Shown here in pieces: positions 5,556-54,377 of a stretch of 64,000 bases of DNA. The notes below the pieces were generated by a model that saw only the letters and a program-made list of their open reading frames with translations, was not told the DNA's origin and searched no databases. The position numbers and the translations under genes are program-made. The stretch spans positions 2,064,722 through 2,128,721 of the forward strand of contig NZ_CP049865.1 in assembly GCF_011393335.1 (NCBI RefSeq). Direction: 5' to 3'. The stretch's first letter is position 1; the number at the start of each line of letters is the position of its first letter. This DNA comes from Propioniciclava coleopterorum. Its GTDB lineage: Bacteria > Actinomycetota > Actinomycetes > Propionibacteriales > Propionibacteriaceae.

Positions 5556-6290
5556 TCAGAGCGGCCAGGACTCGGGGGCGCCCGCGATCCGGACGGTGAT
5601 TCCCAGGACGCGGCCCCGGCGGTTCAGCGCGACGTGCGCGACGGCGTCGCCCTCCTCGTGGTGCAGGACGACCCGCCCCACGATCGGCCCCGGCGCGCGG
5701 CCCCGAAGGGGCTCCCCGTCCAGGTGGTGCAGGGTCGCCGCGCCGATGCTCTCGTGGGCCCCGATCGCGTCCACGATCTGAGCGCGCACCGTGCGCAGTC
5801 GCTTCACGCCGAGGCTCCGCGCGCAGGTGGACGTCATCCGCGCCCTCAGGGACGCCAGGTCGTCGCGCCCGAACAGGGAGGCCGCGTCCCGGGCCGCCGC
5901 CTCGGTCGGCGTGTGATCCGGCGCGACCGTGGTGGTCGGGTCGCCGAGTTCGGCGTGGGCGAAGCGCTTGTAGGCGGCCTGCCGCGAGACGCCCAGGGTG
6001 TCGGCGATCTCCTGCCAGGTGTGTCCCGCGTCGTGGGCGGCGGTGACGCTCCTGCCCAGGTCGATGTCGGCCGCCGCGACGGCCTCGCGGGCGCGGAGGA
6101 TCGCCGCCAGGGTGGGGCTGCCCTCGGCCGCCGCTCCGCCCGCCGTGTCCCCACGCTCCGACGGCGCGGCCGGGGTGCCGCCCGACGGTCCGTAGCGGCG
6201 ATCCTGGGCGTGCCCCGTGGGGGAGTCGGGGCCGGAGCGGCCCTGGAGTGCGACACCCTGGAAGGGGTCGTGCGGGTGGGGTCGGGTCAC
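5556..6290 (-). CDS. Helix-turn-helix protein with C-terminal fold domain
   Basis: 244 residues. A disordered Gly/Pro/Ser-rich N-terminus is followed by a helical segment and a clear HTH (HTWQEIADTLGVSRQAAYKRF, about residues 90-112) of the kind used to read DNA. The C-terminal half (FGRDDLASLRARM... to GRVLGITVRI) resembles NTF2/DUF3887-like accessory domains, where acyl or small-ligand sensing is supposed; that is inference. Its ATG overlaps the stop of the upstream membrane-protein gene by 4 bp, so the two form an operon, and a 25-bp palindrome in front of the operon may be its own operator. Confidence 0.7.
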   Translation of the reverse strand: MTRPHPHDPFQGVALQGRSGPDSPTGHAQDRRYGPSGGTPAAPSERGDTAGGAAAEGSPTLAAILRAREAVAAADIDLGRSVTAAHDAGHTWQEIADTLGVSRQAAYKRFAHAELGDPTTTVAPDHTPTEAAARDAASLFGRDDLASLRARMTSTCARSLGVKRLRTVRAQIVDAIGAHESIGAATLHHLDGEPLRGRAPGPIVGRVVLHHEEGDAVAHVALNRRGRVLGITVRIAGAPESWPL

Positions 6291-30327: not shown

Positions 30328-31338
30328 CTAGAGCGAGCCGTACCGTTCCTTGGCCGCCTGGATCGCCCCGACGTAGCCGCCGCGCTCGATCGCGTCGGCG
30401 TCGGTGACCATCGGCAGCGCCACCATGCCGCGCATCTGGTCCAGCGAGGTGAACCCCTTGCGGACCAGCCAGCTGTGCAGCCCGCCCACGAGTTCGGCTG
30501 TGTAGCCGCGCCCGTGCCGGATGAGCGACGCCGTCGTCATCACGACGTCGGCCCCGGCCAGCAGGTACTTCACGACGTCGTCGCTGGTCTCCACGCCCGT
30601 GGACCCCGCCAGCGAGGCCCGCGTGTGGTTGCGGAGCGCCGCGATCCACGTGCGGGGGAGCCGGCCCTCGTGCGGCGTGGACAGGTCGAAGGACGTGTCC
30701 ATCCGCAGGGTCTCTGGGTCGATGTCCGGCTGCAGGAAACGGTTGAACAGCACCAGGCCCGCCGCGCCGGCGTCCACCAGCTGCAGGGCCATGTTGCCCG
30801 GCGAGCTGAAGTACGGCGACATCTTCACCGACACCGGGATCCGGACCGCGTCGGCGACAGCCGCCACGATCTCCAGGTGCCGCTTGGCGACGACGTCGCC
30901 GGTCGTGGCGATGTCGCCGGGCACGAAGTAGATGTTCAGCTCGATCGCGGACGCCCCCGCGTCGGCCAGCTCGCGGGCGAACTCGACCCAGCCGCCCAGG
31001 TCGGCGCCGTTGAGCGAGGCGATGATCGGGACGTCGACCGCGTTGACGGAGCGCTCGACCAGCGACAGGTAGGTGTACGCAGCCGACTTGGTCGTGATCG
31101 GGTTCGCCGGGAAGTAGTCCAGCGCCTCGGGGGAGGCGTTCTCATGCGACGCGATCAGCGCCTCGTCACGGGCGACCTCGGCGCGCAACTGCTCCTCGAA
31201 CAGCGAGTAGAGCACGATCGCGGACGCCCCGCCCTCGGCCAGGCCCTTCACGCCGTCGACGTTCTGGCTGAGCGGACCGGCGGACGCAACGACGGGGTGC
31301 TTGAGCTCGAGCCCCAGGTAGGTGGTGGTCAGATCCAT
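30328..31338 (-). CDS. Dihydroorotate dehydrogenase-like protein
   Basis: 336-residue FMN TIM barrel: YLGLELKHPVVASAGPLSQN start, LNIYFVP, IPVSVKMSPYF (FMN-lysine region), GAAGLVLFNRF, and the phosphate-binding GVETSDDVVKYLLAGADVVMTTASLIRHG end. It lacks the usual PyrD catalytic Cys/Ser environment as far as I can see. Relatives are commonly found next to pyruvate:ferredoxin oxidoreductase, as here (3 bp downstream of nifJ). Probably a flavoprotein feeding or using the ferredoxin pool, not the pyrimidine enzyme. Confidence 0.85.
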   Translation of the reverse strand: MDLTTTYLGLELKHPVVASAGPLSQNVDGVKGLAEGGASAIVLYSLFEEQLRAEVARDEALIASHENASPEALDYFPANPITTKSAAYTYLSLVERSVNAVDVPIIASLNGADLGGWVEFARELADAGASAIELNIYFVPGDIATTGDVVAKRHLEIVAAVADAVRIPVSVKMSPYFSSPGNMALQLVDAGAAGLVLFNRFLQPDIDPETLRMDTSFDLSTPHEGRLPRTWIAALRNHTRASLAGSTGVETSDDVVKYLLAGADVVMTTASLIRHGRGYTAELVGGLHSWLVRKGFTSLDQMRGMVALPMVTDADAIERGGYVGAIQAAKERYGSL

Positions 31339-31341
31339 CGC

Positions 31342-34300
31342 TCACTCCTTCGCATCGGCGGCGAACTGGCCGGCCCCGCGGGCCGCCATCTCCTCGTAGT
31401 CGCGCCAGCGGCGCTCGACCTGCTGCTGCCCGAACTCCAGCATCCGCTCGGCGGCCTCGGGGTCGGACTGCCGCAGCATCCGGAACCGTAGCTCGTTCTC
31501 GTGGTACTTGCTCAGCGGGAAGCGCGGGCGCGGCGAGTCCAGCAGGAACGGGTTCCGGCCGGCCATCCGCAGCACCGGGTTGTACCGCATCAGCGGCCAG
31601 TGCCCCGAGTTGACGGCCAGGTACTGCTGGTCGAGGCCCTTCTTCATGTCGATGCCGTGGGCGATGCAGTGGCTGTAGGCCAGGATGATCGACGGCCCGT
31701 CGTAGGCCTCGGCCTCCCGGAACGCCTTCAGCGTCTGCTCCGGGTCGGCACCCATCGCCACGCGGGCGACGTACACGTTGCCGTAGGAGATCGCCTGCAG
31801 GGCCAGGTCCTTGGAGATGGTCTCCTTGCCGGCGGTGGCGAACTTCGCCACCGCGCCCATCGGCGTCGCCTTGGACGCCTGGCCACCGGTGTTGGAGTAC
31901 ACCTCGGTGTCCAGCACCAGCACGTTGACGTCCCGGCCCGAGGCGAGCACGTGGTCCAGGCCGCCCGAGCCGATGTCGAAGGCCCAGCCGTCGCCGCCCA
32001 CGATCCACACCGAGCGGCGCAGCAGGTGGTCGGCCACCGAGCGCAGGTCGGCCGCCTTGGGGCCCTCGAGGCCGTCCAGGACGCCCTTGAGCTCCTCGAC
32101 GCGGGTGCGCTGGGCGCTCAGGTCGGACTCGTACTGCTGCTCGGCGTCCAGGATGGCGTCCACCAGGTCGTCGTTGCCGATGACGGGACGCATCTCGTCC
32201 AGCCGGGTGCGCGCCAGCTCGGTCTGCAGGTCGGCGGCCAGGCGCAGGCCCAGGCCGAACTCGGCGTTGTCCTCGAACAGCGAGTTGGACCAGGCCGGGC
32301 CGCGGCCGTACTTGTTGCTCGACCACGGCGTGGTGGGCAGGTTGCCGCCGTAGATCGAGCTGCAGCCCGTCGCGTTGGCGATGGACGCGCGCCCGCCGAA
32401 CAGCTGGCTCAGCAGCTTCAGGTAGGGCGTCTCGCCGCAGCCGGTGCAGGCGCCGGAGAACTCGAACAGCGGTTCGAGGTACTGGACGCCGCGGACCGTC
32501 GCGAAGTCCACCCGGCTGCGCCGGTTGATCGGCAGCGACTCGAAGAACGCCACGTTGGTGCGTGCGGGCTCGCGGTCCTCGACGAGCTCGAGGTTGATCG
32601 CCTTGCGGTTGTGGCCGCCGTTGCGCACCTTGACCGGGCACGCCTCGACGCACAGGCCGCAGCCGGTGCAGTCCTCGGCGTACACCTGCAGGGTGTAGCG
32701 GGCCCCGGGCAGGCCGGCCGCGTTCAGCTCGGCGGTCTGGAAGCCGTCGGGCATGCCGTCGAGCGCCGTCTCGGGGTAGTACTTGGCGCGCAGCACCGAA
32801 TGCGGGCACACGAAGGCGCAGTTGCCGCACTGGATGCACTCCTGGGGGTCCCACACGGCGACGATGTCGGAGATGTTCCGCTTCTCGTACTGCGTGGTGC
32901 CGCTGGGGTAGGTGCCGTCCACCGGCAGCGCCGACACCGGCAGCAGGTCGCCGTTGTCGAGCAGCATCTGCGCGGTCACGTCGCGGACGAACTCGGGCGC
33001 GTGGTCCGGCACGGGGGCGAGCAGCTGCTTGTCCGAGACGGGCGCGTCCGGCACCTCGACGCGGTGCAGGTGCGCGACGGCGGCGTCCACGGCGTTCTCG
33101 TTCTTGGCCACCACGTCGGCGCCGCGGCGTCCGTACGTCTTGCGGATGGACTCCTTGACCGCCTCGACGGCGTCCTCGCGCGGCATCACCTTGCTGATGG
33201 CGAAGAAGCACGTCTGCAGCACGGTGTTGGTGCGGTTGCCCATGCCGGCGGCGCGGGCGACCGCGTTGGCGTCGATCGTCCACAACTCGCAGTCCAACTC
33301 GATGAGGCGGCGCTGCATCCCGACCGGCAGGTGCGCGAACAGCTCGTCGGGGCTGTGGTGGCTGTTGACCAGGACGACGGTGCCCCGGCGGGCCATCTTG
33401 AGCACGTCGACGCGCTCGAGGATCGACCAGTGATGGACGCCGATGAAGCCGGCCGCGTTCACCAGGTAGGGCGCGGTGATCGGCTTGGGGCCGAAGCGCA
33501 GGTGGCTGACGGTGCGGCTGCCGGACTTCTTGGAGTCGTAGACGAAGTAGCCCTGGGCGTACGTCCCGTCCTGGCTGCCGAGGATCTTGATGGTGTTCTT
33601 GTTGGCGCCGACCGTGCCGTCGGAGCCGATCCCGAAGAAGACCGCGCGCAGCGTCTTGTCGGACTCGACGTCGATCTCGGGGTAGTCGATGCTCAGCATC
33701 GTCACGTCGTCGTTGATGCCGACGGTGAACCGGGGCCGCGGCGAGGGCTTGTCGAGCTCGTCGAAGACGCCGATGACCATGCCCGGCGTGAACTCCTTGC
33801 TGGACAGCCCGTAGCGTCCGCCGATCACGCGCGGCAGGGTGGCCCGCGCGCCGGAGGAGACCGCCTCGGCCAGCGCCGAGGTCACGTCGAGGAACAGGGG
33901 CTCGCCGCCCGCGCCGGGCTCCTTGGTGCGGTCCATGACCGCGATGCGGGTGGCCGAGGCCGGGATGGCCGCGAGCAGCTGCTCCACGGGCAGCGGGCGG
34001 TAGAGCCGGACGTGGACGACGCCCACCTTCCGGCCGCGCTCGTTCATGTACTCCACGGCCTGCACGGCGGTCTCGATGCCCGAGCCCATGATGACGATGA
34101 CGGCTTCGGCGTCCGGGTCGCCGTGGTACTCGACCAGGCCGTAGCCGCGTCCGGTGAGCGCGCGGTACTCGTCCATGGCCTGCTGGACGATGCCGGGCAC
34201 CTTCTCGTAGAAGGGGTTGACCGTCTCGCGGCTCTGGAAGTAGGTGTCGGGGTTCTGCGCCGTGCCGCGGATGTAGGGGTGCTCCGGGCTCAGGGCCCGG

Positions 34301-34908
34301 TTGCGGTGCTCGATGATGAGCTCCTCGGGCACGTAGGCGCGCAGGTCGTCGTCGCTGAGCATGTCGAGCGTGTTCAGCTCGTGGCTGGTGCGGAAGCCGT
34401 CGAAGAAGTGCAGGAACGGGACGCGGCTGCGCAGCGTGGAGAGCTGCGCGATGGCCGCCATGTCGTGCGCTTCCTGCACCGACGCCGAGCTGAGCAGGGC
34501 GAAGCCGGTCTGCCGGACCGCCATGACGTCCTGGTGGTCGCCGAAGATGGACAGGCCCTGGGCGGCCAGCGAGCGGGCGGCGACGTGGAACACCGTCGAG
34601 GTCAGCTCGCCGGCGATCTTGTACATGTTCGGGATCATGAGCAGCAGGCCCTGCGACGCGGTGAACGTCGTGCTCAGCGCGCCGCCCTGGAGGGCGCCGT
34701 GCAGCGCGCCGGCGGCGCCGCCCTCGGACTGCATCTCGATGACGGTGGGCTTGACGCCGAAGACGTTGCGGCGCCCCTGGCTGGCCCAGTCGTCGGCGAG
34801 CTCGGCCATGGTCGAGCTCGGGGTGATCGGGTAGATGGAGCACAGCTCGTTGAGCCGGTAGGCGACGGAGGCGGCCGCCTCGTTGCCGTCGATGATCGCT
34901 CGGGTCAT
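31342..34908 (-). CDS. nifJ: Pyruvate:ferredoxin (flavodoxin) oxidoreductase
   Basis: 1188 residues, the full single-chain PFOR length. Domain I with AYRLNELCSIYPITPSSTMAE, domain II/III, then the gamma-like domain, an inserted two-[4Fe-4S] ferredoxin domain (CIQCGNCAFVCP and CTGCGLCVEACP), and the thiamine-diphosphate domain (CTGCGETPYLKLLSQLFG, GDGWAFDIGSGGLDHVL, NTGGQASKATP). Oxidises pyruvate with CoA to acetyl-CoA and CO2, reducing ferredoxin or flavodoxin. Oxygen-sensitive chemistry implies anaerobic or microaerobic use. Start ATG 34908, 15 bp after the upstream oxidoreductase gene. Confidence 0.97.
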   Translation of the reverse strand: MTRAIIDGNEAAASVAYRLNELCSIYPITPSSTMAELADDWASQGRRNVFGVKPTVIEMQSEGGAAGALHGALQGGALSTTFTASQGLLLMIPNMYKIAGELTSTVFHVAARSLAAQGLSIFGDHQDVMAVRQTGFALLSSASVQEAHDMAAIAQLSTLRSRVPFLHFFDGFRTSHELNTLDMLSDDDLRAYVPEELIIEHRNRALSPEHPYIRGTAQNPDTYFQSRETVNPFYEKVPGIVQQAMDEYRALTGRGYGLVEYHGDPDAEAVIVIMGSGIETAVQAVEYMNERGRKVGVVHVRLYRPLPVEQLLAAIPASATRIAVMDRTKEPGAGGEPLFLDVTSALAEAVSSGARATLPRVIGGRYGLSSKEFTPGMVIGVFDELDKPSPRPRFTVGINDDVTMLSIDYPEIDVESDKTLRAVFFGIGSDGTVGANKNTIKILGSQDGTYAQGYFVYDSKKSGSRTVSHLRFGPKPITAPYLVNAAGFIGVHHWSILERVDVLKMARRGTVVLVNSHHSPDELFAHLPVGMQRRLIELDCELWTIDANAVARAAGMGNRTNTVLQTCFFAISKVMPREDAVEAVKESIRKTYGRRGADVVAKNENAVDAAVAHLHRVEVPDAPVSDKQLLAPVPDHAPEFVRDVTAQMLLDNGDLLPVSALPVDGTYPSGTTQYEKRNISDIVAVWDPQECIQCGNCAFVCPHSVLRAKYYPETALDGMPDGFQTAELNAAGLPGARYTLQVYAEDCTGCGLCVEACPVKVRNGGHNRKAINLELVEDREPARTNVAFFESLPINRRSRVDFATVRGVQYLEPLFEFSGACTGCGETPYLKLLSQLFGGRASIANATGCSSIYGGNLPTTPWSSNKYGRGPAWSNSLFEDNAEFGLGLRLAADLQTELARTRLDEMRPVIGNDDLVDAILDAEQQYESDLSAQRTRVEELKGVLDGLEGPKAADLRSVADHLLRRSVWIVGGDGWAFDIGSGGLDHVLASGRDVNVLVLDTEVYSNTGGQASKATPMGAVAKFATAGKETISKDLALQAISYGNVYVARVAMGADPEQTLKAFREAEAYDGPSIILAYSHCIAHGIDMKKGLDQQYLAVNSGHWPLMRYNPVLRMAGRNPFLLDSPRPRFPLSKYHENELRFRMLRQSDPEAAERMLEFGQQQVERRWRDYEEMAARGAGQFAADAKE

Positions 34909-34925: not shown

Positions 34926-36556
34926 TCAGCGCTCGGGGATCATCTCGATGGCGTGGACCGGGCACTGCTCGTAGCAGGTGCCGCAGCCGGTGCACTTGGC
35001 GTAGTCGTACTTGTAGCGCAGCCCCTTGCCGAGTTTGATGACCGCGTCCTCGGGGCACGAACCCAGGCAGCCGTCGCACTCGATGCAGTTGCCGCAGCTC
35101 AGGCAGCGCCACGCCTCGGTGCGGGCCTCGGTCTCGGTGAGGCCGCCGACGACCTCGTCGAACGCGACGCGCGCGGCGACGGCGAGCTCGGGCTGGGTGG
35201 TGCGGCGGTTGTCGCCCCAGTACCAAAGATTGAGCTTGTCGAAGCTGGCCAGGTCGTGCTTCTCGGTGAGGATCGCGGGCATGTTGGACAGCCACAGGTC
35301 GATCATCTTGGCGGCCTTCTTGCCGTGGCCGACGCCGATGGTCACCGTGCGCTCGGAGGGCACCGCGTCGCCACCGGCGAAGATGCCGGGGACGTCGGTC
35401 ATGAGGGTCCTGGGGTCGACGTTGACGACGTCGCCGTCGAAGCTCATGCCGGGGATCGAGTGCAGGAAGCCCGAGTCGGCCTCCTGGCCCAGCGCGAGGA
35501 TGACCGTGTCGGCCTCCAGCGTCTCGAAGCGGCCGGTGCCGCGCGCCTTGCCGGCGTCGTCGAGCTCCATGATCTCGACCTGCATCTGGCCCTCGTCGAA
35601 CTGGTTGATGGTGCGCAGCCAGTTCATCTTGACGCCCTCGCGGACGGCCTCGGCGTGCTCCTCGGCGTGCGCGGGCATCTGCTCCTGCGTCCGCCGGTAG
35701 ACCACGATCGACTCCTCGGCGCCCAGGCGGCGGGCGGTGCGGGCGGCGTCCATGGCGGTGTTGCCGGCGCCGTAGACCGCGACGCGGCGTCCGATCAGCG
35801 GGCGCTCGCCGGAGGCGACGTCGCGCAGGAAGCTCACGGCGTCCACGATGCGCCCGGCGTCCATGGTGGGGATGTCGACCCGCTTGGACAGGTGCGCCCC
35901 GATCGCGACGAACACGGCGTCGAAGTGGCCGGCCTTCTGCTCGGCGAGCAGGTCCTCGACCTTGTGGTTCTGCACGAACCGGACGCCCAGGTTGCGGATG
36001 CGCTCGATCTCGGCGTCCAGGACATCGCGGGGAGGCGGTACTCGGGGATGCCGTAGCGCATCATGCCGCCGGGCAGCTCGGACCCGTCGTGGATCTCGAC
36101 CTCGTGGCCGAGCATCGCCAGGTGGTAGGCGGCCGACAGGCCCGAGGGGCCGGACCCGATCACCAGGACGCGGCGTCCGGAGGTGCGGGCGGGCTTGAGG
36201 AACTGCCAGGCGTTCTCGATGGCGGCGTCGCCGAGGAACCGCTCGACCGAGTGGATGGAGACGGCGCCGTCCAGCTCGATGCGGTTGCAGGCGGTCTCGC
36301 ACGGGTGGTAGCAGACCCGGCCGTGGATCGCCGGGAACGGGTTGTTGCGGGTCAGCTCGCGCCACGCGCCCAGGTCGTCCTTGGCCTTGACGAGGCGCAG
36401 CCACTCTTGGATGTTCTCGCCGGCGGGGCAGGCGTCGTTGCAGGGCGGCAGCAGGTCGACGTAGATCGGCATCCGGACGCGCACGGGTCCGACGCGGCCC
36501 GCCGAGGTGCCCAGATCGGGCAGTTGTGTCAGGTTGCGGGTCGTGGGCTGGTCCAT
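34926..36556 (-). CDS. GltD-like FAD/Fe-S ferredoxin:NAD(P)H oxidoreductase (apparent frameshift)
   Basis: About 543 residues once repaired. N-terminal Fe-S domain (CNDACPAGENIQEW, CYHPCETACNR), FAD site VLVIGSGPSGLSAAYHLA, NAD(P) site VAVYGAGNTAMDAARTARRLG, IFAGGDAV, and a C-terminal two-cluster ferredoxin (CLSCGNCIECDGCLGSCP, CTGCGTCYEQCP). GltB is absent, so ferredoxin-NAD(P)H exchange for the adjacent PFOR is likelier than glutamate synthesis. The frame breaks at GGGG 36029-36032; one more base joins YRLP to RDVLDAEIERI. Start ATG 36556 follows GGAGG with 6-nt spacing. First gene of the operon. Confidence 0.85.
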
Positions 36557-36589: not shown

Positions 36590-36608
36590 ACACTACCTTT
36601 TGTAGTAG
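36590..36608 (-). promoter_or_regulatory. BlaI-like near-palindrome upstream of the PFOR operon
   Basis: ACACTAC-CTTTT-GTAGTAG, arms 7 bp, 5-bp spacer, core ACTAC/GTAGT perfect. 34 bp before the start of the oxidoreductase gene, so within promoter reach. It shares arm sequence and spacing with two boxes between cydA and the BlaI-type gene at 53 kb. Confidence 0.5.
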
Positions 36609-36750: not shown

Positions 36751-37015
36751 GTCGCCCGCGTTCGCGACGAGTGGCCCGCGTTCGCGACGAGTGGCCCGCG
36801 TTCGCGACGAGTGGCCCCCGTTCGCGACGAGTGGCCCCCGTTTGCGACGAGTCGCCCTCGTTTGCGACGAGTCGCCCTCGTTTGGGACGGGCCGCCCCCG
36901 TTTGCGACGAGCAGCCCGCGTTCGCGACGAGCCCCCCGTTCGCGACGAGTCGCCCCCATTCGCGTCAGTTGCCCACGTAGGAAAGGGGGCAACTGGCGCT
37001 AGCGGGGGCGACTGG
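36751..37015 (+). repeat. 20-bp tandem repeat array 2 with terminal hairpin
   Basis: About ten 20-bp units (GTGGCCCGCGTTCGCGACGA type, variants CCC/CTC and TTCG/TTTG), with one shortened unit at 36931-36948, ending in CAGTTGCCC (36966) / GGGCAACTG (36987) and a second GGGGGCGACTGG (37004). Lies between the 5' end of the oxidoreductase gene and the 3' end of a GNAT gene. Same orientation and cap design as arrays 1 and 3. Confidence 0.9.
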
Positions 37016-47205: not shown

Positions 47206-48770
47206 TCAGCCGAGCACGAGTTCGCGGTCGCAGCGCGCCCGGACCTCCGGGTCGTGCGTGATGACCAGCAGCGGGGACGCCCCGGCGCCGGCCCACACGT
47301 CGTCGAGCAGCGCGCTCGCCGTCTCGGGGTCGAGGTGCTCGCTCGGCTCGTCCAGGATCAGCACCTGGTACTCCCCGACGACCAGGCGGGACAGCGCCAG
47401 GCGCCGCGCCTCGCCGCCGGACAGTGCCGTGCCCAGTTCCCCGACGACCCGGTCGGCCGCCACGTCGAGGCGGACGGCGGCCAGCGCGGCCTCCACCTGG
47501 TCGCGGGTGGCCGCCTTGTCGCCGATCATCACGTTCTCGGCCACGGAGGTGGAGAAGATGTGGGCGTCCTGGGCCAGGTAGCCAACCCGCCCGGTCACCT
47601 CCACCGAGCCCGCCGCGGGCGGGATCAGCCCCAGCAGTGTCGCGGCCAGCGTCGTCTTGCCGATCCCGGAGGGCCCGACGACGGCCAGCGACTCGCCCGG
47701 CCCCACCTCGAACGTCAGCCCGCTCAGCAGCGGGGCCGCCCCGGCCAGCCGATGCTGAGGTCGCGGGCCGCGAGCGCCGGCGTCGCGGCCGTCGGGGCGG
47801 CGTCCAGGTCGCCGCGGCCGACGGGCCGGGCGGCGAGCAACTCCCGGACGCGGGCCAGCGCGACCCGGGCGCGGGTCGAGGTCTGGGCGGCCTTGGTGAA
47901 GTCGGCGAAGACCTCGTGCAGCGCCAGCGGCATGAGGGTCAGGACGGCGAGCAGCGTGTGGTCCAGCGTCCCGGCGCGCACCTGCACGGCGCCGATCCCC
48001 AGGGTGGCGATCACCGAGCCGCCCGCGGCCAGCGTCTGGAGCGCGGTCGCCAGGCCGCGGGTGCGTGCGGCGCGCTCCTCGTGGCGGCGCAGTGCGTCGT
48101 CGGCGGCGGCCACGCGCGCCAGGGCGCGGTCCTGCGCGTCGTAGGCGACCAGGTCCGGGGCGGTGCGGCCCACCTCGTGCACCGCGTCGGCCAGGGCGCC
48201 GCGTCCGGACAGGGTAGCGGCATCCGCGCGGGCTGACAGCCGGGCGGCCAGCCAGGGTGCCAGCACCCCGGCGACCAGCGCCCCGGCCAGCAGCGCCAGC
48301 GCCGCGGGCCACGAGAAGACGCCCATGATGACGGTGGTCGCGAGCAGCACGAACAGCCCGGATCCGAAGGGCAGCAGCACCCGGACGACGGCGTCCAGCA
48401 CCGCGTCGACGTCGGCGACCACGCGGGTGAGCAGGTCGCCGCGGCGGCGTCCCAGCAGGGTGGTTCGGGCCAGCGCCCGGTAGGTGTCCAACCGCAGCGC
48501 CGATTGCAGCCGCAGGCCCAGGTCGTGACCCACCAGCCGTTCGAGGTAGCGGAACACGCCGCGGCTGATGCCGAACGCGCGGACCAGCACGGACGCGGCG
48601 GTCAGGTACATCACCGGCGGATGCTCGGCGGCGCGCGACAGCAGCCAGGCCGAGACGCCCATCAGCGCCACCGACGACAGCGACGCGGCGCCGGCCAGCA
48701 GGACGGCCAGCGCGAGCCGCGCCCACCCGCGGGGGACGGCGGAGATCAGCGAGCGGAGCAGGGGGATCAC
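47206..48770 (-). CDS. cydC: Thiol/heme-type ABC exporter CydC subunit (apparent frameshift)
   Basis: About 521 residues after repair. Six-span ABC exporter domain (RLALAVLLAGAASLSSVALMGVSAWLLSRAAEHPPVMYLTAA), then the nucleotide domain in another frame: Walker A VVGPSGIGKTTL, signature variant LSGGEARRLALSR, Walker B VLILDEPSEHLD. The frame breaks at CCCC 47739-47742; one more C turns WPGRPRC-stop into WPGAAPLLSG. Starts at GTG 48770, overlapping the cydD stop by 4 bp. CydDC exports cysteine/glutathione and is needed to assemble cytochrome bd. Confidence 0.88.
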
Positions 48771-50503
48771 GACGCGGCCCCGATCGTGACGACGCGGTCG
48801 GCCTCGGCGAGCACCGCCGGCCGGTGCGACACGACGACCACCGTGACGCCGGTGCCCCGCAGGCTCCGCAGCAGGGCGGCCTCGGCGTCGGCGTCCAGGC
48901 CGGCGGTGGGCTCGTCCAGCAGCAGGACGTCGGCCCCCGCGTCGATCCGCAGCAGGGCCCGGGCGGTGGCGACGCGGCGGCGTTCGCCCGCCGAGAGCCC
49001 CTCGCCGTCGTCGCCAACCGGACGCTCCGGGTCCATGCCGGCCGCCCCGGCCCGGGCCAGGGCGTCGGCCAGCGCCGTGGCGTCGGCGTCGGCGTCCGCG
49101 AGGCGGAGGTTGTCGGCGATCGTCCCGTTCACCATGCCGGGGTCCTGCCCGACGAACGCGATCCTTCGGCGCGCGGGCAGGGTCAGGGCGCCCGCGCTGG
49201 GGCGGAGAAACCCCATCAGGGCGTTGAGCACCGTGGTCTTGCCGCCGCCCGAGGGGCCGGTGAGGACGACGAACTCGCCGCGCCCCACGGTCAGGTCGAC
49301 CCCGGTGACGGCGGGGCCGTCCGCGCCCGGGTAGGTGTGGCCCAGGCCGCGCGCCCGCAGGACCGGCCCGGCCTGCTCGGAAGCCTCGGACGCCTCAGGC
49401 GCCGGCGCGGGGCCGGCCGGACCGGAGGGACCCGCGGCGTCGATCACCGCGAAGGCCTGGTCGGCGGCGGCCATCCCGTCGGCGGCGTCGTGGTAGTGGA
49501 CGCCGACCTGGCGCACCGGCAGGTAGACCTCGGGCGCCAGGATCAGCACGAACAGCGCGGTCCCCAGCTCCAGGTCGCCGTACACGACCCGGAACCCCAC
49601 CGTCACCGCGATCACGGCCACGGACAGGGTGGCGAGCAGCTCCAGGACGAACGCCGACAGGAACGACACCCGCAGCGTCCCCATGGTCTCGGCGCGGCTG
49701 GCGTCCTCGGTCTTGGTCAGGCCGATCGCCTGGGCGCGGGCGCGTCCGAAGACCTGCAGCGTCGGCAGCCCGGCGACCAGGTCGGCGAAGTGCCGGGCCA
49801 GCCGCTGCTGGGTGCGCCAGCGCTTCTTGGTGCGGGCCTCGGTCGTCCAGCCGACCAGCGCCATGAACACCGGGATCAGGGGCAGCGTCAGGACGATGAT
49901 GAGGGCGGCCTGCAGATCGGCGAGGGCGATCGCCGCGCCCACGATCAGCGGGACGGTGCAGGCCAGCGCGAGCTGCGGCAGGTACTTGGAGTAGAAGCCG
50001 TCGAGCGCGTCCAGCCCGACGGTGGTGAGGTTCACCAGCCCGGCGGTCGAGGTGCGGTCGGCCAGCGGGTCCGCCAGCCGCGCGGCCACGATGTCGCGGC
50101 GCAGCTGGGACTTCACCGCGGCCGCGGCCCGGTGCGACATCAGGGTGTTGAGCCAGTTCAGCCCGGCCTTGGCCGCGAAGATCCCGGCCAGGGCGAGCAG
50201 GGCGGGTGCCAGCGCGGGCCACTCCCGGGTCCCGGGGACCGGGGTGAGGTAGTCAAGGCCGGGGGCGGCGTCGAAGAACCCGGCGATGGTGTCGGCCAGC
50301 ACCCGGCCCTGCCCGACCGTCAGCAGCGCCAGCGCGACCCCGATCGCAACCCCGGCGACGAGGTAGCCGCGCGTCGCGCGCGCCCGGCGGAGCAGGCGCG
50401 GGTCGATCGGGCCACGGGTGGGCGCGCCACCCTCGGGCGCCGGGGATGCCGCAGGGGCGGCGTCCGGGCGGACGCCGCCCCTGGCGGTCTGTTGTGGTGG
50501 CAC
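48767..50503 (-). CDS. cydD: ABC exporter CydD subunit
   Basis: 578 residues from GTG 50503. Exporter membrane domain (GYLVAGVAIGVALALLTVG, KSQLRRDIVAARLADPLADRTSTAGLVNL) and nucleotide domain: Walker A LTGPSGGGKTTVL, an altered signature GLSAGERRRVATAR in place of LSGGQ, Walker B VLLLDEPTAGLD, H-loop VVSHRP. The changed signature is common in CydD and may make one ATP site weaker. A Pro/Ala-rich loop (GPSGPAGPAPAPEASEASEQ) joins the domains. Partner of CydC encoded next. Confidence 0.93.
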   Translation of the reverse strand: MPPQQTARGGVRPDAAPAASPAPEGGAPTRGPIDPRLLRRARATRGYLVAGVAIGVALALLTVGQGRVLADTIAGFFDAAPGLDYLTPVPGTREWPALAPALLALAGIFAAKAGLNWLNTLMSHRAAAAVKSQLRRDIVAARLADPLADRTSTAGLVNLTTVGLDALDGFYSKYLPQLALACTVPLIVGAAIALADLQAALIIVLTLPLIPVFMALVGWTTEARTKKRWRTQQRLARHFADLVAGLPTLQVFGRARAQAIGLTKTEDASRAETMGTLRVSFLSAFVLELLATLSVAVIAVTVGFRVVYGDLELGTALFVLILAPEVYLPVRQVGVHYHDAADGMAAADQAFAVIDAAGPSGPAGPAPAPEASEASEQAGPVLRARGLGHTYPGADGPAVTGVDLTVGRGEFVVLTGPSGGGKTTVLNALMGFLRPSAGALTLPARRRIAFVGQDPGMVNGTIADNLRLADADADATALADALARAGAAGMDPERPVGDDGEGLSAGERRRVATARALLRIDAGADVLLLDEPTAGLDADAEAALLRSLRGTGVTVVVVSHRPAVLAEADRVVTIGAAS

Positions 50504-50512
50504 CCCGTCAGG

Positions 50513-51589
50513 CTACGCGGACGCGGAAACCGGGATCGTGGCGACGTCGTCGGGGATGTTCTTCGTGCTGATCCGCTTGCGGAACACCCAGACCGACCAG
50601 CCCTGGTAGGCCAGCACGATCGGGACGAAGACCACCGCGGCGCCGGTCATGATCGACAGGGTGAGTTCGGTGGACGCCGCCGTGACGCGGTCGAGCGGGA
50701 TCCCCGTGCCGGAGTTGATGAAGCCGAGGTTCGGCCACATCCGGATGAAGATCCAGACGGCGACCAGCAGGATCGTCACGGTGGTGCTGGCGAACGCCCA
50801 GCCGTCCCGGTCCGCGCGGATCGCGACCCAGGCGGCCACCAGGGCCACCGCGGCGACGGCCGCGAGCGCCCAGCCGAGCGCGCCGATGCCGAAGGCGACG
50901 TTGGCCCAGATCAGGTAGGCGGCGCCCAGCACGATGGCCGCGAGCCCCTCCTTCTGGGCGAACGCCTTGGCGCGCTCGTGGACGGTGTCGCGCGTCTTGA
51001 GCGTGATGAAGTTCGCGCCGTGGAACAGGAACAGCGCGACCATCACGACGCCGCCCAGCAGGGCGAACGGGCTGAACAGGCTCCAGAAGCCGCCGGTGAA
51101 GACGTGGAGGTGGTTGCTGCCCTCGGCCAGCGCGACCGGCATCCCGATGATGAAGTTGGCGAACCCGACCCCGAAGACCAGCGACACGATGAACGAGCCG
51201 ATGCAGGCCATCCAGTCGAAGGCGTTGCGCCAGCGGGCGTCGGGGTGCTTGGCGCGGTACTCGAACGAGACGCCGCGGATGATCAGCCCGACCAGGATGA
51301 GGAACAGCGGCAGGTACAGCCCCGAGAACAGCGTGGCGTACCAGCCCGGGAAGGCCGCGAACATCGCGCCGCCGGCGGTCAGCAGCCACACCTCGTTGCC
51401 GTCCCACAGCGGGCCGATGGTGTTGACGATGACCCGGCGTTCCTTCTCGTTCTTGCCGAGGAAGGGCAGCAGCATGGCCACGCCGTAGTCGTAGCCCTCC
51501 AGCACGAGGAAGCCGATCCACAGGACGGCGATCAGGCAGTACCAGACCACCTGCAGGGTGGTGGGCTCAGTGGCGAGAAGCGTCAGCAT
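50513..51589 (-). CDS. cydB: Cytochrome bd oxidase subunit II
   Basis: 358 residues, eight to nine spans. Typical start LQVVWYCLIAVLWIGFLVLEGYDYGVAMLLPFLG and DGNEVWLLTAGGAMFAAFPGWYATLFSGLYLPLFLIL, later GANFITLKTRDTVHERA. Supports the heme-bearing subunit I in quinol oxidation with O2 reduction to water. 16 bp after cydA. Length fits the family. Confidence 0.96.
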   Translation of the reverse strand: MLTLLATEPTTLQVVWYCLIAVLWIGFLVLEGYDYGVAMLLPFLGKNEKERRVIVNTIGPLWDGNEVWLLTAGGAMFAAFPGWYATLFSGLYLPLFLILVGLIIRGVSFEYRAKHPDARWRNAFDWMACIGSFIVSLVFGVGFANFIIGMPVALAEGSNHLHVFTGGFWSLFSPFALLGGVVMVALFLFHGANFITLKTRDTVHERAKAFAQKEGLAAIVLGAAYLIWANVAFGIGALGWALAAVAAVALVAAWVAIRADRDGWAFASTTVTILLVAVWIFIRMWPNLGFINSGTGIPLDRVTAASTELTLSIMTGAAVVFVPIVLAYQGWSVWVFRKRISTKNIPDDVATIPVSASA

Positions 51590-51605: not shown

Positions 51606-53102
51606 TCAGTAGGCGAAGGAGAGGACGTCGTCCTCACCCTTGATCTCGACGGGAGCCACCTCGGCCGGCAGGCCGGCCTTCGCGTAGCGGATCATCAGCC
51701 CCACCTCCACGACGGCCAGCGCCCCGTAGATGAGCGTGTAGAGCACCATCGTCGCGAACACCGAGCCGACGCCCACCCCGGGTGAGACCGCGGACGCCGT
51801 GGGCAGCACCCCGGCGACGATCCAGGGCTGGCGGCCCATCTCGGTGAAGATCCAGCCCGCGGAGTTGCCGAACAGCGGCCCCAGGACGACGGCCAGCATC
51901 AGGAAGGACCACAGCACCGAGTGTTTGGGCAGGCGATCCTTGCGGAGCGTGAACAGCGTCCAGGCGCCGATCGCGATGGCGATGAAGCCCAGCGTCATCA
52001 TGATGCGGAACGTCCAGTAGGTGACCGGGATGTTGGGCGTGAAGTCGCTGATCCCGATCGTGGCGAGCTTGTCGGAGTAGGCCTGCTGCAGCGCGTTGTT
52101 CGGGTTGACCAGCGCGCCCTGGCGGTAGGACTCCTGCAGGTTGTTGATGCCCTCGATGCGCGCGTAGGGGTCGTTCTTGGCCAGGATGCCCAGGACGCCG
52201 GGCACGTGGATCTCGAAGATCGGACGCGAGCCGTCCAGGCTGCCGATGGTCAGCAGCGAGAACGGCGCCATCTCGCCGTCGCCGCCGGCGGTCTCGTACA
52301 GCGCCTCGGCCGCGGCCATCTTCATGGGCTGGACCTGGTACATGACCTTGCCCTGGAAGTCGCCGGACAGGATCACGGCGGCGCCGGAGGCGAGCAGCAC
52401 CCAGGCGGCGAACTTGGTCGACCAGCGGAAGGCGGACACGTCGGCGTCCTCCTGCGCGGTGCGGTCGGCCTTGTTGAGCTTGGCCAGGTGCCAGCCCGAG
52501 ATCGCCAGGACCAGGCCGCTGCCGGTCATGTAGGCGGCCGACAGCGTGTGGGGGAAGGTCGCCAGGAAGACCGGGTTGGTCAGCAGCGCCCCGAAATCGG
52601 TCATCTCGGCCCGGTCGGTGAACGGGTTGTAGGTGGCGCCGACCGGGTTCTGCATGAAGCTGTTGGCGGCGAGGATGAACACCGCCGAGACCGTGGCGCC
52701 GGCCGAGGCGAGCCAGATGGCGGCCAGGTGCAGCTTTTTGGGCAGCCGGTCCCAGCCGAAGATCCACAGGCCGAGGAACGTCGACTCGAGGAAGAAGGCC
52801 AGCAGGGCCTCCAGCGCGAGCGGCGCGCCGAAGATGTCACCCACGAAGCGGGAGTACTCCGACCAGTTCATGCCGAACTGGAACTCCTGCACGATGCCGG
52901 TGACGACACCCATGGCGAAGTTGATGAGGAAGAGCTTGCCGAAGAACTTGGTGAGACGGAGGTATTTGTCGGCTCCGGTCCGGACCCACATCGTCTGCAT
53001 GACCGCCACCAGCAGCGACATCGCGATCGTGACCGGCACGAAGAAGTAGTGGTAGACGGTGGTGATACCGAACTGCCATCGTGCGATCGTTTCGGGACTC
53101 AT
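51606..53102 (-). CDS. cydA: Cytochrome bd oxidase subunit I
   Basis: 498 residues. Heme-ligand His in TTVYHYFFVP (H18, equivalent of E. coli H19), another in TFPHTLSAAYMTG, the GRQPW motif (MGRQPWIVAGVLPT), and a short quinol loop as in actinobacteria. Start ATG 53102 (MSPETIARWQFG) matches the family; the TTG at 53138 would run through an operator box. High-affinity quinol oxidase used in low oxygen. First gene of cydABDC. No strong ribosome site is visible in front of the ATG. Confidence 0.96.
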   Translation of the reverse strand: MSPETIARWQFGITTVYHYFFVPVTIAMSLLVAVMQTMWVRTGADKYLRLTKFFGKLFLINFAMGVVTGIVQEFQFGMNWSEYSRFVGDIFGAPLALEALLAFFLESTFLGLWIFGWDRLPKKLHLAAIWLASAGATVSAVFILAANSFMQNPVGATYNPFTDRAEMTDFGALLTNPVFLATFPHTLSAAYMTGSGLVLAISGWHLAKLNKADRTAQEDADVSAFRWSTKFAAWVLLASGAAVILSGDFQGKVMYQVQPMKMAAAEALYETAGGDGEMAPFSLLTIGSLDGSRPIFEIHVPGVLGILAKNDPYARIEGINNLQESYRQGALVNPNNALQQAYSDKLATIGISDFTPNIPVTYWTFRIMMTLGFIAIAIGAWTLFTLRKDRLPKHSVLWSFLMLAVVLGPLFGNSAGWIFTEMGRQPWIVAGVLPTASAVSPGVGVGSVFATMVLYTLIYGALAVVEVGLMIRYAKAGLPAEVAPVEIKGEDDVLSFAY

Positions 53103-53112
53103 GTGCGGGAGG

Positions 53113-53178
53113 GTACTACCCCTTGTCGTGGCCTCCAAGTCGAGTTGAGTAGCCGTTTTCTACTACTAAGTGTCGTAG
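53113..53178. promoter_or_regulatory. Two BlaI-like boxes between cydA and the BlaI-type gene
   Basis: Box 1, 53113-53131: GTACTAC-CCCTT-GTCGTGG, only 10 bp before the cydA start. Box 2, 53160-53178: CTACTAC-TAAGT-GTCGTAG, 30 bp before the BlaI-type start. Both have 7-bp arms with a 5-bp spacer and share the core of the box at 36590. Positions fit repression of cydABDC and autorepression. Confidence 0.6.
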
Positions 53179-53207: not shown

Positions 53208-53534
53208 ATGCCGATCCTCGGAGACCTCGAACACGCGGTGATGAACGTGCTGTGGGCGCGTTCGGTGCCGACGCCCGTTCGCGACGTGCATGAGGCGCTC
53301 GCTCAGAGCCGGGAGATCGCCTACACGACGGTCATGACCGTGCTCGACCGACTCGCCAAGAAGGGCATCGTCACGCGCCACCTCGAAGGCCGCGCCTGGC
53401 TGTACCAGCCCGCGCGCAGCCGCCTCGACCTGTACGCCGACACCGTGAACGAGGCGCTCGCGACGCTGGAGCCCGAGGAGCGCCTGTACGTGCTGCGGGG
53501 CCTGTTGGCGCAGGAGTCCCCGGCCGACGCCTGA
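53208..53534 (+). CDS. BlaI/MecI-type winged-helix repressor
   Basis: 108 residues. BlaI N-terminal wHTH: LGDLEHAVMNVLWARSVPTPVRDVHEALAQSREIAYTTVMTVLDRLAKKGIVTRHLEGRAWLYQPA; a shortened C-terminal dimerisation part (LATLEPEERLYVLRGLLAQ). Such repressors are often cleaved by BlaR1 sensors; no BlaR1-like protease is nearby, so another signal is likely. Divergent from cydABDC. Start ATG 53208; ATG 53199 in frame is possible. Confidence 0.88.
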   Translation: MPILGDLEHAVMNVLWARSVPTPVRDVHEALAQSREIAYTTVMTVLDRLAKKGIVTRHLEGRAWLYQPARSRLDLYADTVNEALATLEPEERLYVLRGLLAQESPADA

Positions 53535-53596: not shown

Positions 53597-53633
53597 GTTG
53601 CGCCCGCGCGCGTTCCGGCGCATCATCGGTGTT

Positions 53634-54377
53634 GTGAGGACCACCGAGATCCCCGACGAGCGGGCCGTCGTGCGCCCGCCGCACGCCGAAGAGGGCGGCG
53701 ACTCCCACGCCGCGCTGCTGAACAAGCTGCGCGCCGCGGTGCTGGGCGCCAACGACGGCATCATCTCCACCGCCGGCCTCGTCATGGGCGTCGCCGGTGC
53801 CACGACGAACAGCGCGGCCCTGGCGACCGCCGGCATCGCCGGCCTGGTCGCCGGTGCGCTGTCCATGGCCGCCGGTGAGTACGTCTCGGTCTCCGCCCAG
53901 CGGGATTCGGAGCGCGCGCTGCTGGCCAAGGAGCGGCACGAGCTCGCCACCATGCCCGAGGAGGAACTCGACGAACTCGCCGGCCTGCTGCGCGAGCGCG
54001 GCCTCAGCGCCGACGTCGCGCATCGGGCCGCCGAGCAGATGATGGCGCACGACGCCCTGGGTGCCCACGCCGACCTGGAGCTCGGCATCGACCAGCACGA
54101 CCTCGTCTCGCCGTGGGCCGCCGCCGTCTCGTCGCTGTTCTCGTTCGCGGTCGGCGCCCTCATCCCGCTGCTCGCGATGGTGCTGGCCCCGGCCGATGTG
54201 CGCGTCGGGGTCACCGTCGGCTCGGTGCTGGTGGCGCTGTTCCTGACCGGGTTTGCGTCGGCGCGTGTGGGCGGGGCGCCCCCGGCGCGCGCGATCGCCC
54301 GCAACATCGTGGGCGGCTTCCTGGCGATGGCCGTCACCTTCGGAATCGGCACGCTCGTGGGCACGCAACTCGGCTGA
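53634..54377 (+). CDS. VIT-family iron/manganese transporter
   Basis: 247 residues from GTG 53634. CCC1/VIT1 family: LRAAVLGANDGIISTAGLVMGVAGA (span 1 with conserved DGI), LSMAAGEYVSVSAQRDSE (span 2 with the MAAGEYVS motif), a charged cytoplasmic metal-binding insert (ERHELATMPEEELDELAGLL), and three C-terminal spans ending GFLAMAVTFGIGTLVG. Predicted to export or store Fe(II)/Mn(II). Unlinked in operon terms from blaI. Confidence 0.92.
   Translation: MRTTEIPDERAVVRPPHAEEGGDSHAALLNKLRAAVLGANDGIISTAGLVMGVAGATTNSAALATAGIAGLVAGALSMAAGEYVSVSAQRDSERALLAKERHELATMPEEELDELAGLLRERGLSADVAHRAAEQMMAHDALGAHADLELGIDQHDLVSPWAAAVSSLFSFAVGALIPLLAMVLAPADVRVGVTVGSVLVALFLTGFASARVGGAPPARAIARNIVGGFLAMAVTFGIGTLVGTQLG

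Follow-up and report, generated by a model that had tools for sequence, protein, structure and literature searches.

BlaI of Mycobacterium tuberculosis (Rv1846c) is paired with an M56 protease. In the BlaI/MecI family, to which CopY is a metal-sensing relative, the operator spacing differs from that of the ACTAC-N5-GTMGT box described here. FNR and Rex, for their part, have regulons that comprise the bd oxidase, nitrate respiration, iron uptake, fermentation and redox genes. For M. tuberculosis BlaI, passages of published accounts extend the regulon to energy metabolism with the ATP synthase operon (PMC5874750; PMC12565901), tie the protein to the beta-lactamase blaC (PMC8265638) and assign the blaI gene to the IdeR regulon (PMC7924339); the corresponding passages of the citing papers do not mention a cyd, PFOR or nar regulon. 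Among the matches listed from the open PMC literature, none describes a BlaI regulon that covers cyd or genes of anaerobic metabolism. Matches to BlaI in two actinomycete papers (PMC3724488, PMC4172946) are unrelated, the main text of one being without BlaI and the other having only an author called Blair.

The BlaI of Propioniciclava coleopterorum considered here is encoded divergently from cydA. It shares the winged-helix fold and the PF03965 domain with staphylococcal BlaI/MecI but, in contrast to these, it has no BlaR1 partner at the cyd locus and no beta-lactamase target. The genes preceded by its putative operator, ACTAC-N5-GTMGT, would make up a regulon of a kind similar to those of FNR and Rex, while the sensor is unrelated. 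We consider it probable that this repressor has come to control low-oxygen metabolism globally. If the operator of M. tuberculosis BlaI (Sala et al. 2009) proved to be the same, the motif would not be new; the anaerobic regulon still would be.

Boxes at the cyd and PFOR loci

The window, i.e. the whole stretch of 64,000 nucleotides that was analysed, covers C1:2064722-2128721 of a 3.67-Mb one-contig genome. Its two loci comprise the following genes and boxes:

53208..53534, + strand: blaI, 108-aa Penicillinase_R (BlaI/MecI) repressor (PF03965, 77.9 bits)
51606..53102, - strand: cydA, cytochrome bd subunit I (PF01654)
50513..51589, - strand: cydB, cytochrome bd subunit II (PF02322)
48767..50503, - strand: ABC exporter gene (ABC_membrane and ABC_tran), presumably cydD, a name given from position
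34926..36556, - strand: FAD/Fe-S oxidoreductase gene, first of the PFOR operon (Pfam; frameshifted here)
31342..34908, - strand: nifJ-type PFOR (POR_N, POR, EKR, PFOR_II, TPP_enzyme_C)
30328..31338, - strand: dihydroorotate-dehydrogenase-like gene (DHOD; DHO_dh)
53115-53129, no strand: BlaI-type box ACTACCCCTTGTCGT, 12 bp from the cydA start codon
53162-53176, no strand: BlaI-type box ACTACTAAGTGTCGT, 31 bp from the blaI start codon, kept in the congener G011
36592-36606, no strand: BlaI-type box ACTACCTTTTGTAGT, 35 bp from the start of the PFOR operon, kept in six genomes

The original prediction had placed three such boxes in the window, one of them just before cydA, and a pattern scan finds all three where they were claimed, the cydA box being also kept in relatives. 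The predicted spacer of exactly 5 bp holds, but the predicted arms of 7 bp do not: only 5 bp of each arm (ACTAC/GTMGT) are constant, and outside them T or A is weakly preferred. Allowing at most one mismatch, the window contains 9 matches for 2.25 +/- 1.62 expected, and none of 100 shuffles gets to 9.

Other features of the two loci were seen on the way. A 20-bp unit is repeated in tandem (10.6 copies) upstream of the PFOR-operon box, at 36754-36964. After blaI, at 53598-54377, lies a gene for a protein weakly matching TIGR00267 (VIT1/CCC1-like by eye), of which tblastn finds a homologue, likewise after blaI, in 7 of 30 relative loci, own genome included. The assembly carries frameshifts in the FAD/Fe-S gene of the PFOR operon (window ~36030), in a radical SAM gene (L019 ~5860-6070) and in a molybdopterin enzyme gene (L022 1-3150). 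The first two genes are whole in the congeners looked at, and all three frameshifts are likely to be assembly indel errors.

Sites in the whole genome

A genome-wide scan for exact ACTAC-N5-GTMGT, suggested along with the original prediction, gives 12 distinct places (18 pattern matches). Nine loci thus add to cydA, blaI and the PFOR operon; distances are from box to start codon, several start codons being chosen by us, and genes were named from the ORFs round the sites and from family searches:

feoB, preceded by a small feoA-like gene (feoA by eye, without an NCBIfam match)
1445-aa acyl-CoA dehydratase activase; a TetR-type gene divergent
pyruvate phosphate dikinase (PPDK), 172 bp; on the other side a methyltransferase gene, 8 bp
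3-oxoacid CoA-transferase subunit A (scoA), 162 bp
TIGR04053 / AhbD-like radical SAM gene (haem-synthase-like), 14 bp
Flavodoxin_5 gene, weakly HemG-like (30.8 bits)
NarK-family gene, 48 bp; divergent, an HTH gene then a large molybdopterin enzyme gene read as narG (nar names given partly by eye)
Fe-S/NrfD gene followed by a molybdopterin enzyme gene, 64 bp; on the other side an ABC-F gene
pntA-like gene, 39 bp

The targets have a common anaerobic/redox theme. Eleven of the 12 sites lie upstream of genes. The one exception is the scoA box, which overlaps the last codons and stop codon of the preceding gene here and lies past the stop of that gene in G011. A formate dehydrogenase name was tried for the NrfD operon and dropped, since what can be recognised there goes no further than Fe-S, NrfD and molybdopterin-enzyme features.

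Spacer and position controls

The refuting observation named beforehand was a motif equally frequent by chance across the genome. The count alone does not speak for the prediction, while spacing, position and conservation do. The reversed pattern has 88 matches against 18 for ACTAC-N5-GTMGT, so that rarity by itself is no argument; the reversed pattern, whose composition in coding DNA differs, is a poor yardstick and was set aside in favour of other spacers. When spacers 2-8 are scanned, perfect palindromes ACTAC-Nx-GTAGT occur at 6 distinct places with spacer 5 and at 4 places with the six other spacers together (two at spacer 4, one at 6, one at 7), a comparison in which longer spacers are perhaps undercounted since the scan may give the shortest match per start only. 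Spacer 8 gives three further perfect palindromes, all of which overlap boxes of spacer 5.

For spacers 3 and 6 the totals are 10 and 12 places, 9 of each having been examined. Fifteen of these 18 sites are inside long ORFs with a third-position GC excess of at least 0.35; three are unclear or non-coding, and one of these, a spacer-6 site, is a perfect palindrome in sequence that is not clearly coding. Overlap with coding sequence is thus seen for 15/18 controls and for 1/12 spacer-5 sites (at a CDS end), a difference for which the Fisher p = 9e-5 is only rough because the criteria differed between the two classes of sites.

A sequence model trained on 34 boxes yields no new site in three genomes, with 150 of 1103 first-look candidates scored. 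This fraction, and the fact that it lists 8 of the 12 known sites of this genome, make the model insensitive; it is also biased, because its training sites all came from the exact pattern.

Conservation in related genomes

Four congeners (G001, G009, G011 and G012) contain 48 exact sites, and 26 of them have targets in common with this genome: 8/10 in G011, 5/10 in G009, 7/14 in G012 and 6/14 in G001. Eight further sites are common among the congeners, at genes for GAPDH (three), a membrane pyrophosphatase (three) and an Asp-Al_Ex transporter (two); GAPDH and the pyrophosphatase were confirmed by family search on one member each, and the transporter was also confirmed. The pyrophosphatase sites of G001 and G012 are adjoined by an HTH gene and a sufB-like gene (sufB by eye). 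The 14 sites left outside these groups include tryptophanase (G001), transcarboxylase 5S and sulfide:quinone reductase (G012) as well as sites without evident link, at trpS (L056) or in transposase-like surroundings (L102, L108). In G012 (L076 1518-2858) a gene that the NCBIfam model 'type III sulfide quinone reductase, selenoprotein subtype' matches starts 2 bp after a box.

The upstream regions of the PFOR operon from six genomes were aligned. The longest blocks conserved in all six are CTACTAC, N5, GTAGTGT and the GGAGGT for ribosome binding: the box CTACTAC-N5-GTAGTGT is kept though the regions have otherwise diverged.

In other genera, boxes are found in G015 at GlpA, ferredoxin FdxA, SdhC and lactate permease (the last by eye), and in G020 at transcarboxylase 5S (by eye) and an IOR-alpha-like gene (below cut-off). 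With names given by eye, two boxes stand at cydA in Acidipropionibacterium jensenii, which has others at a glpA-like and a lactate-permease-like gene; Tessaracoccus lapidicaptus has boxes both at cydA and at a radical SAM gene, and Propioniferax innocua at cydA and the FAD/Fe-S gene that elsewhere starts the PFOR operon; each of the three also has sites in coding sequence or lacking evident link. The central proposal of the original prediction, a link of cydABDC and the PFOR operon by a common box, is therefore well supported by genome-wide position, by spacing and by conservation in congeners and Propioniferax.

The cyd-linked BlaI protein

The PF03965 Penicillinase_R domain scores 77.9 bits in the cyd-linked BlaI for a curated cut-off of 22.6. 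The predicted model (pLDDT 88) has the BlaI/MecI winged-helix fold. Its best PDB match is 2g9w, M. tuberculosis BlaI, followed by BlaI (1sd4) and MecI (1okr); with 45% aligned identity, 2g9w is the nearest solved structure by sequence as well as fold. More distant forms have a longer C-terminal part than the Propioniciclava protein. No cysteine is present among the 108 residues, nor is an Fe-S or NADH site recognised in them. The test for CopY/TcrY finds no C-terminal cysteine metal-binding motif, TIGR02698 giving 45.1 bits for a cut-off of 121.95. Thiol, Fe-S or CopY-like sensing is therefore unlikely.

The palindromic putative operator is present at the promoter of blaI itself and at those of the targets. 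This genome has a second, diverged BlaI at C1:394808 (C1:394071-395131, L024), beside an M56-like gene; the 14-kb stretch around it is without box, and the searches made do not find it in the four close congeners. Each of these keeps boxes with a single BlaI match, and the cyd-linked BlaI is therefore the economical candidate for the binder.

M56 genes near blaI

The absence of a BlaR1 protease, as originally predicted, holds at the cyd locus but not for the genome, given the M56-like gene beside the second BlaI. Genome-wide, none of seven same-genus relatives has a detectable M56 match. Among ten same-family genomes searched only G016 has one; in a sample of the family, the detection rate is 23 of 77. 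Since M56 matches are mostly below the Pfam cut-off, absence here means not detected.

The blaI neighbourhoods were compared in 80 named loci, which are the best 80 of a longer list, some ending near blaI, so that the proportions are not unbiased. In 41 of them cydA is divergent from blaI within 500 bp, and 36 of these 41 have a box ACKAC-N5-GTMGT within 400 bp before blaI; the exact box is not found at Nigerium, Micropruina and three other cydA/blaI loci. An M56 (BlaR1-type) gene lies within 1.5 kb of blaI in 50 of the best 80. Both neighbours occur together in 12, e.g. in Phytoactinopolyspora, Actinoplanes, Microlunatus, Kineococcus and two Propionibacteriaceae MAGs. The cydA/blaI loci of Propioniciclava (for which no M56 is seen beside the cyd-linked blaI at the loci of the genus in this set), Propionicimonas, Tessaracoccus and Acidipropionibacterium lack M56, some contigs ending near. 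The ancestral unit may thus have been cydA/blaI-M56, from which M56 would have been lost in part of the family.

A putative BlaI regulon of low-oxygen metabolism

We propose that a BlaI dimer would occupy the box over or beside the promoters of about a dozen transcription units and of its own gene, and that bound units would be kept off in air. These would comprise cytochrome bd, PFOR, nitrate respiration, the Fe-S/NrfD/molybdoenzyme operon and ferrous iron uptake, together with oxygen-independent haem steps, PPDK, transhydrogenase, CoA-transferase and the 2-hydroxyacyl-CoA dehydratase activase. Judging from their functions, the targets would be switched on without oxygen. The M56 partner protease having presumably been lost in Propioniciclava and related genera, release of BlaI must then need a different signal, the most plausible being a lack of oxygen or a reduced redox state, which would be indirectly sensed.

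At cydA, the methyltransferase gene, the flavodoxin gene and the radical SAM gene, the box overlaps or abuts a -10-like TANNNT, admittedly a loose motif, 6-7 nt before the ATG, and the PFOR box continues into an invariant TAGTGT. These positions fit repression by RNA polymerase blocking. No -10-like motif is found near the narK and pntA boxes, and a sigma-70 scan finds no promoter at the cydA/blaI or PFOR sites of the window. Further points do not favour the proposal: the PPDK and scoA boxes are 160-170 bp from the start codon, and the scoA box overlaps a stop codon; this genome has the second BlaI; 14 of the 48 congener sites fall outside the shared groups; five cydA/blaI loci are without the exact box; and GAPDH and trpS do not count as anaerobic genes in themselves.

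The same regulon could answer to a metal or haem (iron supply) rather than to oxygen or redox, which we hold to be unlikely. It is favoured by feoB, the haem-synthesis-like genes and the Fe-S enzymes among the targets, by a box 6 bp before a CopA-like ATPase gene (by eye) in G020 (L112) and by CopY, a metal-sensing cousin; yet a protein without cysteine has no CopY-type site, and oxygen better fits PPDK, transhydrogenase, nitrate respiration and transcarboxylase. The placement of M. tuberculosis blaI in the IdeR regulon, in the passage available (PMC7924339), points to iron.

It is less probable still that BlaI governs cydABDC and itself only, the other boxes being due to chance or belonging to another regulator, e.g. 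the second BlaI. This is what the existence of that protein would favour, as does the aspect of larger Propionibacteriales genomes, where most exact matches beyond cydA/blaI resemble, by eye, scattered coding matches. But the box positions are non-random and the targets common across genomes, and neither the box-free surroundings of the second BlaI nor the congeners with one BlaI each agree with such a restriction.

That the box is a promoter element, e.g. part of the recognition sequence of an alternative sigma factor, is very improbable: the right arm does continue into a -10-like TAGTNT in several targets, but the box is an inverted repeat with a constant spacer that occurs on either side of divergent genes, its distance to the start codon varies from 8 to 172 bp, and it tracks blaI across genera even where cydA is absent.

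For a BlaI regulon of low-oxygen metabolism we advance, tentatively, the following history: in part of the Propionibacteriaceae, a BlaI that formerly answered to a BlaR1-type protease at the cyd locus may have lost this protease and become a global oxygen/redox switch, taking the part of FNR and Rex with no cysteine, Fe-S cluster or NADH site. The Rex domain PF06971 is found in none of five Propioniciclava genomes searched; it is found in G015. In a group of propionic-acid bacteria, BlaI, from a family known above all for the control of penicillin resistance, may be the master switch of the anaerobic way of life, and air/anoxia switching in the facultative anaerobes among them would become directly testable, with one candidate protein, one operator and a predicted list of targets. 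If this is true, actinobacterial BlaI would be a regulator of energy metabolism of which beta-lactam resistance is one offshoot.

A particular arrangement is observed at L045 and L048 (G026 and G038, genomes of ~8 Mb from the same order): three boxes stand between cydA and blaI at exact 33-bp intervals, i.e. about three helical turns.
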